In this document: in pieces, positions 49,815 through 55,074 of the stretch
Position numbering within the stretch: position 1 is the first letter of the stretch
Layout of the letters: every line of letters starts with the position of its first letter
Assembly: GCA_014237975.1 (NCBI GenBank)
Contig: JABACA010000006.1
Location: forward strand, 1 to 64,000
From: Mariniblastus sp.
Lineage (GTDB): Bacteria; Planctomycetota; Planctomycetia; Pirellulales; Pirellulaceae
Direction of reading: 5' to 3'
Length of the DNA stretch: 64,000 bases
Position numbers and translations under genes: made by a program
Notes under the pieces: generated by a model
Told to the model about the DNA's origin: nothing
The model's input: only the letters and a program-made list of their open reading frames with translations
Database searches by the model: none

Positions 49815-50408
49815 TTACTGGCCCAGCGCCGACTGGATGACCTTTTGGAATTCGGGATCATTTGGCTTGGTGCGGGGGCTGAAGCGGGCAACCGGCTGAC
49901 CGTTTCGATCAATCACAAATTTTTCAAAATTCCATTGGACCTTGCCGGGCCCTTTCGGCTGAAGATCGAGCTGACAGAGGTTCTTGTAGAACGCTGATTG
50001 CGACTTGCCGTTGACGTCGATCTTGGAAAACATCGGGAACTCAACTCCATAGTTGTCGCTACAGAACGTCTTGATTTCCGATTCCGTTCCAGGCTCCTGC
50101 TTGCCAAATTGATTGCATGGAAAACCGAGCACGACCAAGCCCTGCTTGGAATGCTTGTCATGCAATTTCTGGAGACCCGCATATTGCGGTGTCAGTCCAC
50201 ATTTCGACGCTGTGTTAACAACCACAACCACCTTGCCTTTATATTTTGAAAGGTCTACCTGTTTGCCATCGATAGATTTTACTTTGAAGTTCAGTGCATT
50301 TTTTTTCGCTGCTTCTCCTGTTGCGGCCTCTTGCGCCCACAGGGTAGTTGTCATACAGGTTGTCATTCCGAGCAACAACGCAAAGCAAAGCAGATTTTTC
50401 ATATTCAT
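49815..50408 (-). CDS. Glutathione peroxidase family protein (Cys type), exported
   Basis: 197 residues with signal peptide about 1-26 (cleavage after LWAQ). The peroxidatic residue is Cys-70 (NTASKCG), where some homologs carry Sec. Gln in FPCNQFG, Trp and Asn in VQWNFEKF complete the tetrad. It reduces hydroperoxides, in bacteria usually with thioredoxin rather than glutathione. The cysteine at this position matters because this genome appears to use Sec in two other proteins. It is followed by a divergent or separate protoporphyrinogen oxidase gene. Confidence 0.95.
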   Translation of the reverse strand: MNMKNLLCFALLLGMTTCMTTTLWAQEAATGEAAKKNALNFKVKSIDGKQVDLSKYKGKVVVVVNTASKCGLTPQYAGLQKLHDKHSKQGLVVLGFPCNQFGKQEPGTESEIKTFCSDNYGVEFPMFSKIDVNGKSQSAFYKNLCQLDLQPKGPGKVQWNFEKFVIDRNGQPVARFSPRTKPNDPEFQKVIQSALGQ

Positions 50409-52158: not shown

Positions 52159-52353
52159 ATGAGAGTATTAACGCGATTGATGCTGGTAGGTCTGTTCACC
52201 TGCAGCATGATGGTTTTAGGTGGTTGCGAGAAGGCAGATGCGAAAAAAACACCTGCCACCACACCCACAACGAAATCCGATGAAGATCACGATCACGATG
52301 AAGGTGATGGCGATCACGATCACGATGAGGATGGTGCAGCCGACAAAAAATAG
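52159..52353 (+). CDS. Small His/Asp-rich lipoprotein
   Basis: 64 residues from the ATG at 52159, preceded by AAAAGGAG at 7 nt. A lipoprotein signal ends in VLGGC (Cys about 23). The mature chain is a Thr/Lys linker then DEDHDHDEGDGDHDHDEDG, a dense His/Asp metal-binding tail. No other domain exists. It lies 363 nt upstream of the HMA-domain gene on the same strand. A surface-tethered metal scavenger or buffer is inferred from composition only. Confidence 0.75.
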   Translation: MRVLTRLMLVGLFTCSMMVLGGCEKADAKKTPATTPTTKSDEDHDHDEGDGDHDHDEDGAADKK

Positions 52354-52716
52354 CTTAGGCCAATACCAGCTTCCTTGATCGCGATTTGCTAAGAACGCGC
52401 GGTCAATCAATATATGACTTATCTGTAGACAGTTTGTATTTTTGGCTGTTGAATGGCCAAATTTCATTCTTTCCAGACACGACCTGTGTCCAGGCAATTG
52501 GCCGACTGCCTAACGGCAGTCGGCCTTTTTTAGAGCACTCCGGCCGCAAATTGGGGCCAAACATTGAATTGAAGGCGATTTTTTTCACTTCAGGGCAATA
52601 ATACTTGATTTCCCAGCATATTATCGCTGTTCTACTAAGGTGAATTCGAACAAAATGTAACGGGAACCGACACGCTTCGGTCCATAGAGATTCATTTCAA
52701 ATTTGGAGACAATCAG
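52354..52716. other. Gap of 363 nt with a terminator and unexplained leader
   Basis: After the lipoprotein stop there are 146 nt before a perfect intrinsic terminator (52500-52531), then a further 185 nt to the HMA gene start. The 52354-52500 segment has no frame of note; it may be a long 3' untranslated region or an unrecognised small RNA. The 52532-52716 segment should hold the promoter of the HMA gene. Confidence 0.5.
52500..52531 (+). terminator. Intrinsic terminator
   Basis: GGCCGACTGCC (52500-52510) and GGCAGTCGGCC (52515-52525) form a perfect 11-bp stem with loop TAAC, followed by six T (52526-52531). It ends transcription from the lipoprotein gene or from an unseen small RNA upstream. 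Confidence 0.92.
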
Positions 52717-53232
52717 ATGAAAACCCCACTGAGACTTATGGTACTCAGCCTGTTTTTGGGCGGTACCGTGATGTTGGCGGGATGCGGCGAAGCCAAGAAG
52801 AAGGAAAAACCTTCCGCACCTGACGCGACAGATAAAGCACCCGCTGCCGATGCTGACAAGCCGGCTGCACCCGCTGCCGATGCTGACAAGCCGGCTGCTC
52901 CCGCTGACGCAACCAAGGCAGACGACAAAGCTGCTGGCGATGGCGCAGCCAAACAGGCACCCACCGAGCAAGCAACCGCATCATACAGCCCAAAAATGTC
53001 TGATGATGGAGAAACTCAGATGGTCGCTCTCAAGCTGCCGAACATGACTTGAGGTGGATGCGCCTCCTCGGTCCGAGGAGCTTTGACCAAAATTGAAGGA
53101 ATCTCTGAACTTGAAACCGACACCGGAACAACCACCGCTACATTTGTGGCTGTGAAAGGTCTGGACGTCAAAAAAGTTTTGGACGACCTGTCCAAAGACA
53201 ACAAGCATATTAATGGTTGGTCACAAAAGTAG
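52717..53232 (+). CDS. Selenoprotein: HMA domain lipoprotein with Sec-x-x-Cys metal site, Sec at TGA 53050-53052
   Basis: 171 residues if TGA 53050-53052 is read as Sec-112. A lipoprotein signal (lipobox LAGC, Cys about 23) is followed by a Lys/Glu/Ala-rich linker with 10-residue repeats (KPAAPAADAD type, about 40-100) and an HMA (heavy-metal-associated) domain from about 101. The site reads NMT-U-GGC-ASSVRGALTKIEG, matching the HMA consensus GMTCxxCxxxVxxAL, with Sec-112 replacing the first Cys and Cys-115 kept. The frame then continues cleanly to TAG with a complete domain (SELETDTGTTTATF, DVKKVLDDL). A perfect hairpin of bacterial SECIS type follows. It probably binds a soft metal (Cu, Hg, Ag or similar), or acts in redox chemistry, at the membrane surface. 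A nonsense mutation is the alternative. Confidence 0.88.
52841..52906 (+). repeat. 30-nt tandem repeat in the lipoprotein linker
   Basis: Two 30-nt units (52841-52870 and 52871-52900) differ by one base, and a partial third follows. They encode the Pro/Ala/Asp/Lys linker between the lipid anchor and the HMA domain. Confidence 0.88.
53064..53080 (+). promoter_or_regulatory. Bacterial SECIS hairpin of the HMA selenoprotein
   Basis: CTCCTCG (53064-53070) pairs perfectly with CGAGGAG (53074-53080) around a GTC loop. The loop begins 19 nt after the last base of the TGA, and the apex reads GGTC (53070-53073), the same motif as in the E. coli fdhF SECIS loop as I recall it. The hairpin lies inside the coding sequence (residues ASSVRGA). 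SelB binding is inferred from geometry. Confidence 0.82.
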
Positions 53233-53268
53233 TTCCACACTACAGCTGTATCATTAAATATCATTGAA

Positions 53269-53298
53269 AGCCGTTTGCGAATGCAAGCGGCTTTTTTT
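53269..53298 (+). terminator. Intrinsic terminator after the HMA selenoprotein
   Basis: AGCCGTTTGC (53269-53278) pairs with GCAAGCGGCT (53283-53292) with one G-U pair and loop GAAT, followed by a T-run to 53298. It lies 37 nt after the TAG stop at 53232, not after the TGA. This supports the view that the true gene end is the TAG. Confidence 0.9.
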
Positions 53299-53616
53299 GT
53301 TTACGTGCATGAAAACGGGCAGCAAAAAGGCCGGGTCTGGACATGACATCATCACTGTCCGCATCCACGAAACAACATCAAAGGCCTGGCAGAATAAATA
53401 ATGGATGGACTTGTTCCGGACCCAATGCCTGCTCTGGTGAGAATAGTGGCAGAAATTGCCTCAAAAGCACGACCTGAGGTTCAAAACATCCAGCCATCAT
53501 CGGTTTGGTTGTTTGATTTGAGGGCGTACAATATTAAACTGAAAGCTCAGCCCTACGGTTGAATCTGTTACAGGACAAGTGCGATCACTCCCAGAAGGTT
53601 TGAATTGGAAATCAAA
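53299..53616. other. Intergenic region, 318 nt
   Basis: Between the HMA gene terminator and the Gfo/Idh gene. I see no gene. It should hold the promoter for the oxidoreductase; a agaagg ribosome-binding-site-like sequence is at 53593-53598. Confidence 0.4.
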
Positions 53617-55074
53617 ATGAATTATTCAAGGCGAACAATTATCAAGTCCGGTGTTTTGGCAGCCGGAACAACTGCAGCCATCCCGGCCCTTTCCTACGGA
53701 CGCATCATCGGCAGCAATGAAAAAATCCGCGCTGCCGTGATTGGGCTCAACGGCCGCGGGCAAAGTCACATGCAAGGTTTCAAGAAAAACGTGGTGGCAT
53801 TATGTGACTGTGATGAAGGCATTCTCAAGAAACGAGCCAAAGACCTGGATGTTGAGACGTATGTAGATTTTCGCAGACTTTTGGACCAGCAGTCCATCGA
53901 CATTGTCTCGATTGCCACACCCAACCATACCCATTCACTGATCGGCATCGCGGCGGCGGCGGCCGGCAAAGATGTCTATTGCGAAAAACCCGTTTCCCAC
54001 AACGTGTGGGAAGGCCGCCAGTTGGCCGAAGCCGCCAAGAAATACGATCGCGTCATTCAGTGTGGGACACAAAGCCGCTCCAGCCCTTCGCTACAAAAGG
54101 CGGTCGCTTTTGTACAAGAAGGCATGCTCGGCAAAATCAAACATGCGGTTGGGACTTGCTACAAGCCTCGCAAGAGTATCGGCAAGCTCGATAAGCCGTT
54201 GGAAATTTCCAAGTCGGTCAACTACGACCTGTGGTGCGGGCCAGCTGAAAAACGACCCCTCATGAGACCCCGCCTGCACTATGACTGGCACTGGGATTTC
54301 AATACGGGTAACGGCGACATGGGTAACCAGGGAATCCATCAAATGGATATTGCCCGCTGGTTCCTGGGATACCAGACCGTTTCGCCTCGTGTGTTCAGCA
54401 TTGGCGGTCGCCTGGGGTACGACGATGCGGGTGATACACCCAATACGCAAACCGTTATCCACGACTACCCGGCGGCCCCGCTGATTTTTGAAACCCGCGG
54501 CCTACCCAAGGCCAAGGAATTTCAGAGTAACAACTGGGGCGGCAACATGGACAACTACCGCGGATCCCGGATCGGGGTCATTGTGCAATGTGAAAATGGC
54601 TATGTCGTCATTCCCAGCTACACCTCGGCCAAAGCATTTGATCAGGACAACAATCAACTGGAAAACTGGCAGGGTGGTGGTAATCACTTCGAGAACTTCC
54701 TGCAAGCCGTTGAGGCCCACGATGCGAGCCTGCTCAACGCACCGATCGAAGAAGGCCATTTGTCCAGTGCCCTGTGCCACACGGGTGGTGTCTCTCACCA
54801 GCTGGGAGTCCCGCTGTCAAAAGCGGATATTACAGAGAAACTGGCGAGTGAATCCGAGCTGTTCCAGGATTCGGCGAATCGCATGTTCCAGCATCTGACT
54901 GCTAACGGAGTCGATCTTACTGATCGGTCGGAGATCACCATGGGTGCCGATATCAAGATGGATCCAAAATCCGAAACCGTGATCGGAAATCCGCAGGCCG
55001 CCGCCATGATGTCTCGGGACTACCGTGGCGGGTTCGAGGTACCCAAACTACAGGCCGGAAGTAAAGCATCCTGA
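53617..55074 (+). CDS. Gfo/Idh/MocA family oxidoreductase, Tat-exported
   Basis: 485 residues from the ATG at 53617 (a TTG at 53605 would add 4). A Tat signal, MNYSRRTIIKSGVLAAG (Arg-5, Arg-6), precedes a Rossmann-fold NAD(P)-binding domain (IRAAVIGLNGRGQSHM, then VVALCDCDE) and the catalytic EKPVSHN motif (Lys of CEKP). The C-terminal domain is the usual beta-sheet (WHWDFNTGNGDMGNQGIHQMD in part GNGDMGNQGIHQMD). It oxidises or epimerises a sugar or inositol-like substrate, but outside the cytoplasm, where a tightly bound NAD is implied. Planctomycetes carry many copies. Confidence 0.94.
   Translation: MNYSRRTIIKSGVLAAGTTAAIPALSYGRIIGSNEKIRAAVIGLNGRGQSHMQGFKKNVVALCDCDEGILKKRAKDLDVETYVDFRRLLDQQSIDIVSIATPNHTHSLIGIAAAAAGKDVYCEKPVSHNVWEGRQLAEAAKKYDRVIQCGTQSRSSPSLQKAVAFVQEGMLGKIKHAVGTCYKPRKSIGKLDKPLEISKSVNYDLWCGPAEKRPLMRPRLHYDWHWDFNTGNGDMGNQGIHQMDIARWFLGYQTVSPRVFSIGGRLGYDDAGDTPNTQTVIHDYPAAPLIFETRGLPKAKEFQSNNWGGNMDNYRGSRIGVIVQCENGYVVIPSYTSAKAFDQDNNQLENWQGGGNHFENFLQAVEAHDASLLNAPIEEGHLSSALCHTGGVSHQLGVPLSKADITEKLASESELFQDSANRMFQHLTANGVDLTDRSEITMGADIKMDPKSETVIGNPQAAAMMSRDYRGGFEVPKLQAGSKAS

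Follow-up and report, generated by a model that had tools for sequence, protein, structure and literature searches.

The 64-kb window analysed here, by which we mean the whole stretch of 64,000 nucleotides, contains a short gene with one in-frame TGA that would encode a predicted lipoprotein ending in an HMA domain. Table 1 collects the features of this gene and of its immediate surroundings. A scan for terminator-like hairpins returned 6 sites versus 1.5 expected in shuffles, and because two such hairpins flank the gene (52500-52525 and 53266-53295) it looks monocistronic. A search of 52360-53620 for a sigma-70-like promoter found none. The preliminary description of this locus held that the terminator follows the TAG rather than the TGA, and this is indeed where the downstream hairpin lies.

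Table 1. Features of the predicted Sec-HMA lipoprotein gene and its flanks (positions in the 64-kb window; Sec, selenocysteine).
Feature	Position	Strand	Remarks
Small predicted lipoprotein, His/Asp-rich (neighbour)	52159..52353	+	64 residues
Terminator-like hairpin between the Sec-HMA gene and the upstream gene	52500..52525	+	
ATG start, with GGAG ribosome-binding-like sequence upstream	52717; 52705-52708	+	read directly
Sec-HMA lipoprotein gene	52717..53232	+	171 residues with TGA as Sec; TAG 53230-53232
Predicted lipoprotein signal peptide	52717..52782	+	residues 1-22; by eye, lipobox pattern present
Lipobox Cys23, predicted lipidation site	52783..52785	+	LAGC at residues 20-23
Low-complexity Ala/Pro/Lys/Asp linker	52786..52998	+	internal repeat PAADADKPAA
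HMA domain, predicted ferredoxin-like fold	52999..53229	+	profile match and structure model
In-frame TGA, predicted Sec112	53050..53052	+	first metal ligand of motif
TGC, Cys115, second metal ligand	53059..53061	+	kept in 22/22 aligned domains, own included
SECIS-like hairpin, 7 bp CTCCTCG/CGAGGAG, GTC loop	53064..53080	+	11 nt past TGA; P=0.011 vs synonymous codons
Terminator-like hairpin downstream of TAG	53266..53295	+	13 pairs, T tail

When the TGA is read through and its position given as Cys, residues 105-145 match the Pfam HMA profile PF00403 with an E-value of 8.8e-9 (36.1 bits against a cut-off of 24.8), and in that match the TGA aligns with the leading Cys of MTCxxC. The gene reads LKLPNM-T-[TGA]-GG-C-ASSV, followed by an open frame up to the TAG. 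Of the usual MxCxxC pair of Cys ligands, which is common in HMA domains and is not demanded by the PF00403 model, the second is present and the first is replaced by the TGA. The initial placement of the TGA at the first Cys of GMTCxxC is right as to position, with a small correction to the motif: the source gene has NMT-U, and GMT-U is seen in relatives. The second Cys (TGC at 53059-53061) is retained and the domain complete, as had been claimed. Modelling of the domain (pLDDT 89.7) predicts the beta-alpha-beta-beta-alpha(-beta) fold expected of HMA, and the solved structure ranked first against this model was MerP 1osd, with a TM of 0.75. Inspection of 22 aligned domains, out of 27 Sec-HMA domains examined, reveals that Met at -2, both ligand positions (the first being the TGA), the Gly before the second ligand, and a Val and a Leu after the motif are all invariant. 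This set of residues fits what a metal loop would be expected to conserve.

The suggestion that the protein resides outside the cytoplasm agrees with its predicted signal peptide and lipobox, and with the wider family. Of 45 Sec-HMA genes, 43 showed an export pattern in a crude scan and the remaining two were recognised by eye; the Sec-HMA genes examined in the genus and the phylum are thus all predicted to be exported.

Searches with TGA-aware translation, one of the checks originally proposed, addressed how constant the TGA is among homologues. For 40 relatives, 29 of the 37 matches listed carry exactly one TGA; these come from 15 genomes and comprise every match with E <= 2.5e-8. Across 28 genomes of the genus, one TGA is found in 30 of 38 matches, distributed over 16 genomes with up to three Sec-HMA copies per genome, and all 30 strong matches (E <= 5.8e-27) are among them. 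No Sec-HMA was found in 12 of the 28 genomes. Each strong match of the relatives and the genus was inspected, and the TGA occupies the same motif position in all of them. The other eight genus matches are seven weak, stop-free ones and one degenerate copy with a TAA. The seven are HMA matches in frames of 413-418 residues (G018:C15, G003:C248, G017:C10, G007:C300, G008:C78, G020:C106 and G023:C267), and the degenerate copy (L214 3535-3672, G003:C131) is a domain end without the motif, lying behind the TAA.

Codon substitutions downstream of the TGA were compared in 12 pairs chosen from the stored loci, where dN/dS ranged from 0.03 to 0.23 in 11 pairs and reached 0.56 in one. Judged by 11 of these 12 chosen pairs, the frame downstream of the TGA is under purifying selection. 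These values bear directly on whether the TGA could be a true stop, leaving a 111-residue lipoprotein and a relic behind it. Public gene calls read the gene in this way, since 11 of the 12 database proteins found are 100-116 residues long and four that we examined stop exactly at NMT, just before the TGA; one of the public proteins, P0009, is the start of the Sec-HMA protein of genome G011. Selection after the TGA and conservation of the domain across families speak against a true stop, which we consider exceedingly improbable. A degraded domain after the TGA in close relatives had been named as the outcome that would refute the reading; the relatives instead have a conserved domain under selection, with one degenerate copy in G003. 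TGA does also act as an ordinary stop in this genome, terminating 13 of 33 frames of >=250 residues in the 64-kb window, in a mechanical count that includes some frames that are not genes.

The family extends beyond short lipoproteins. Three architectures occur in the genus: the short lipoprotein, a signal peptide with a helical part and the Sec-HMA domain, and a YceI part joined to Sec-HMA (YceI E 6e-30 in L033). The helical part resembles Spy (NCBIfam E 0.0013) and LTXXQ (E 0.04-0.27) weakly, below the threshold in each case. The short-lipoprotein and helical-part architectures are also present in G702, from a different genus of Pirellulaceae. Sampling the phylum evenly (392 genomes) gave at least 98 genomes with an HMA match and at least 11 entries with a TGA (the source genome and ten others); these counts are lower bounds because at most 14 candidates were scored per genome. 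The ten other genomes contribute 14 TGAs in 12 genes, every TGA at the first motif ligand and every gene predicted to be exported, with a U-x-x-x-C spacing in some of these relatives. The source gene thus belongs to a group of Sec-HMA genes for predicted exported proteins that occurs in the genus and, more thinly, across the phylum.

Several loci carry more than one such domain. Two genes hold tandem HMA domains in one frame with a TGA in each and would encode exported proteins with two Sec residues, namely L189 (G104:C494; GMTUGAGC..GMTUGSSC) and L188 (G197:C257; GMTUGGC..GMRUVRMC). In G425 and G235, two Sec lipoproteins lie near each other, and at L192 (G425:C1 ~4240360-4241440) three HMA lipoproteins are adjacent, two with Sec and one with Cys. 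The public fragments P0014-P0016 begin within an HMA domain, run through an inter-domain CC..C motif and stop at a second NMT, the cut that a gene caller would make between two TGAs; they may derive from a gene with two Sec-HMA domains. A two-Sec gene corresponding to P0014 was sought in 396 genomes of the order, where the search returned G702 alone, which holds two single-Sec genes.

We next turn to the means of decoding. The source genome contains SelA (E 6e-173), SelB (E 2e-80, with its start cut by the contig end), a tRNA-Sec with anticodon tca, and SelD (E 5e-79, exceeding the curated cut-off). The SelD frame (L047, G000:C356:18200-19105) is open for 733 residues, so a fusion to another domain is probable. 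All four of selA, selB, selC and selD, whose absence had been put forward as an argument against Sec, are thus present. Among the 15 genomes with TGA-HMA genes in the set of 40 relatives, SelB is found above cut-off in 14, SelA in 11, and a tRNA-Sec of >60 bits in 13. SelB occurs in 14 of 15 relatives with TGA-HMA versus 16 of 25 without (P 0.06). At the level of the phylum, SelB is above cut-off in 10 of 10 genomes with the TGA form versus 4 of 10 with exported Cys forms, the latter hand-picked from stored loci (Fisher P 0.011). In genome G004, which is 80% complete and has two Sec-HMA genes, SelA was not found, no SelB exceeded the cut-off and no tRNA-Sec match was strong.

A SECIS-like hairpin follows the TGA in nearly all of the distinct sequences compared. 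Merging of near-identical sequences reduced 27 regions to 25 (24 from the genus and one from G033), and 24 of these 25 form a stem of 5-7 pairs whose loop contains GU, at a similar distance from the TGA, the loop GU being partly dictated by a conserved Val codon elsewhere in the family. For 15 hand-picked representatives, the summed hairpin score was 216 versus 87 +- 12 under a synonymous-codon null, a value matched in 0 of 2000 draws. Individually, 17 of 25 hairpins reach P 0.05 in this control; the eight that miss it are L019, L021 and L032 (0.055-0.071), L026 and L029-L031 (0.15-0.16), and L025 (0.46). The stem sequences of the source gene (CTCCTCG/CGAGGAG), G011 (TGTTTCG/CGAAACG) and G033 (CTCGTCG/CGACGAG) differ by compensated changes. 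These three hairpins share a GGTC tip, which we take to be that of the E. coli fdhF SECIS. The hairpin expected of a bacterial selenoprotein is therefore detected by this hairpin-specific test. Whole-region folding is unexceptional (z -0.69; mean z -0.45), such that only the specific hairpin stands out. Rfam SECIS_1 gave no match in the source genome and matched none of the controls either, and no Rfam family matched the 64-kb window.

Elsewhere in the phylum, the 14 TGAs score 226 versus 161 +- 11, with 4 of 14 individually at P 0.05. The other ten fall short, most clearly L190 and L191, the first TGA of L189 and the second TGA of L188 (P 0.24-1.0). The 17 exported Cys positions used as a control score 170 versus 149 +- 11, a weak excess owed largely to L146 (P 0.005) and L151 (P 0.012). 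In L146 (G222), an exported Cys form with GMTCGAGC, the Cys codon is followed by a perfect 9-bp SECIS-like hairpin with a GTC loop, possibly left over from a Sec ancestor.

Homologues that carry Cys in place of Sec, a further mark of a selenoprotein, exist in P0013, a 203-residue predicted lipoprotein with NMTCGGC, and in the exported Cys forms of the phylum. P0013 groups with the two Sec forms of G702 in one clade with a support of 98. The tree, built from 80 columns and leaving 35 of 61 inner branches unresolved, needs 10 changes between Sec and Cys, of which two are forced by well-supported branches. A contig search with a Cys pattern, which is silent on Sec forms, listed 80 of 128 loci; all of those listed are Cys proteins and none has a planctomycete title.

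The decoding machinery, the conserved position of the TGA, selection on the frame behind it, the hairpin and the Cys homologues all agree, and by comparison of sequences we regard the product of 52717-53232 as very probably a selenoprotein, with Sec at TGA 53050-53052 as first proposed. The alternative that the UGA is read by an ordinary tRNA, placing Trp or another residue in the protein, draws on the fact that sequence analysis cannot reveal the residue inserted. A complete Sec machinery in the genome, SECIS-like hairpins after the TGA, Cys at the same position in homologues and the difference in SelB between the TGA-form genomes and the chosen Cys-form genomes all argue against ordinary readthrough, leaving it very improbable. 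Within this Sec-using genome, we take the product of 49815-50408 on the minus strand to be a glutathione-peroxidase-like protein with Cys in its CGLT motif.

Comparison with known systems indicates where this selenoprotein stands. MerP uses Cys-x-x-Cys and works with MerT. The source protein resembles MerP (TIGR02052) in having a single exported HMA domain and in the first-ranked solved structure. It differs in scoring 32.2 bits versus a cut-off of 92.55, in its TGA for the first Cys codon and its predicted lipid anchor, and in the lack of a MerT match in its genome. The cytoplasmic copper chaperone CopZ (NF033795) is likewise distinct, as the source protein reaches 23.9 bits versus 91 and has a predicted signal peptide and lipobox. 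Two NCBIfam families already combine Sec with HMA-like parts. NF041115, a UxxU metal-binding (seleno)protein, is an HMA-like Sec family matched at E 1.4e-5; in contrast to its two Sec residues (UxxU, as listed in the table of PMC13188914) and 74-position model, the source protein is UxxC, exported, and scores 25.2 bits versus 95. NF045683, a MerT/CopZ fusion-like heavy metal transport selenoprotein, is a selenoprotein family with an HMA-like part, matched at E 3.2e-6, and by its name a MerT fusion, whereas the source protein has no MerT part and scores 26.8 bits versus 375. A Sec cation-transporting P-type ATPase (TIGR01525) shares UxxC in a metal transport protein, as listed in Table 1 of PMC13188914, and is a membrane pump, in contrast to the small, exported source protein.

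The earlier remark that no described family of this arrangement was known fits the exported family, for which the titles and abstracts of the open-licence papers listed in the searches contain no report. Sec with HMA-like parts in general is already represented, by NF041115 and NF045683. Section 7 and its table in PMC13188914 (2026; 119 families) include NF041115, the Sec P-type ATPase and a MerT-like protein with Sec and, judged by name, no exported HMA family with UxxC. Two Sec-containing MerP sequences from ocean metagenomes appear in a passage of PMC2398784, and planctomycete selenoproteins are treated in part of PMC4807772. Extracts of PMC9312934 and PMC1242214 were also consulted, that of the latter being off the subject, and a term search retrieved no passage from PMC12013277 or PMC5029168.

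Partners in a Mer system were then sought. No MerT match was found in any of 27 Sec-HMA genomes, many of them incomplete, under a search that recovered 3 of 3 positive-control genomes with MerT-HMA fusions; within the search used, the source genome (94.8% complete) has no second HMA domain. Together these results indicate that the protein is not the MerP of a Mer system, and with the Sec-HMA domain as the sole HMA found in the source genome, it is unlikely that metal is handed on to a pump's HMA domain in this genome. Reading of neighbours by eye recognised no metal gene or operon next to Sec-HMA genes. Neighbours of the short Sec-HMA subgroup are housekeeping genes: for seven such genes we take them to be PNPase, a histidine kinase and RibF in 7 of 7 and ribosomal S15 and a DHH phosphoesterase in 6 of 7, as read in L201 and clustered with the remaining six. 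A gene similar to the His/Asp-rich small lipoprotein of Table 1 lies at the equivalent place in G005, beside the Sec-HMA counterpart, and a similar His-rich stretch is found inside the linker of the G011 Sec-HMA protein.

What the protein does is less certain than how it is decoded. As a ligand, selenolate is both softer and stronger than thiolate. This chemistry, the MerP-like fold, the invariant loop, the His-rich neighbour and linker, the lack of MerT and the single HMA domain favour soft-metal capture in the envelope. The source protein would be an exported, predicted lipoprotein with Sec for the first HMA Cys, whose Sec-x-x-Cys site probably captures soft metal ions, and we infer, with a similar modest preference, that such capture is its main role. 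In the mechanism that we propose, SelB with Sec-tRNA would decode the UGA, aided by the hairpin right after it, a step for which the comparative evidence is strong. From sequence prediction, the signal peptide and lipobox would then carry the domain out of the cytoplasm, tethered by a flexible linker. Ions such as Hg(II), Ag(I) or Cu(I) would be held more tightly by the pair of selenolate 112 and thiolate 115 than by two thiols, and so be kept away from envelope and cell targets. Because neither MerT nor another HMA domain was found in the source genome, we infer that the protein is more likely a terminal scavenger or buffer than a MerP- or CopZ-like relay. The original interpretation is supported, and a selenolate metal site is the role suggested for it.

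The main rival to metal capture is a redox role, in which Sec and Cys would form a selenenylsulfide whose targets are disulfides of the envelope, peroxides or oxidised lipids, with metal binding secondary. Discussion of selenocysteine has mostly concerned its redox chemistry. Section 7 of PMC13188914 counts UxxC among the redox motifs of selenoproteins and regards most selenoproteins with UxxC as redox proteins. The YceI and helical, weakly Spy-like fusions would fit envelope stress, and they count against a specific metal role in that the YceI and weakly Spy/LTXXQ-like parts indicate the envelope in general; the failure to recognise a metal gene next door points the same way. In contrast, the fold is HMA/MerP-like and not thioredoxin-like, the metal-loop Met never varies (22/22), and some relatives space the two ligands as U-x-x-x-C. 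On this balance, a primarily redox function is unlikely, if worth serious consideration.

A third reading treats selenium as the cargo, which the exported protein would store or hand on, as such or as an adduct with metal. The presence of as many as three copies in a genome and the two-Sec frames would raise the amount of selenium outside the cytoplasm. The existence of Cys forms and the retention of the second Cys in 22 of 22 aligned domains speak against a cargo, which we hold to be improbable, though less so than ordinary readthrough.

Returning to metal capture, we give about even weight to a broader picture, in which planctomycetes would possess an envelope system, able to work without Mer transport, whose lipid-anchored, helical- and YceI-fused and in some cases two-domain Sec-HMA proteins trap soft metals outside the cell by means of selenolate. 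The public gene calls examined are cut at the UGA, such that proteins of this kind are easily missed or filed as hypothetical. If metal capture is correct, selenocysteine would serve as an extracytoplasmic metal ligand, and a conserved family of several architectures would make the use of selenium as a detoxification metal ligand testable with a small, easily made domain.
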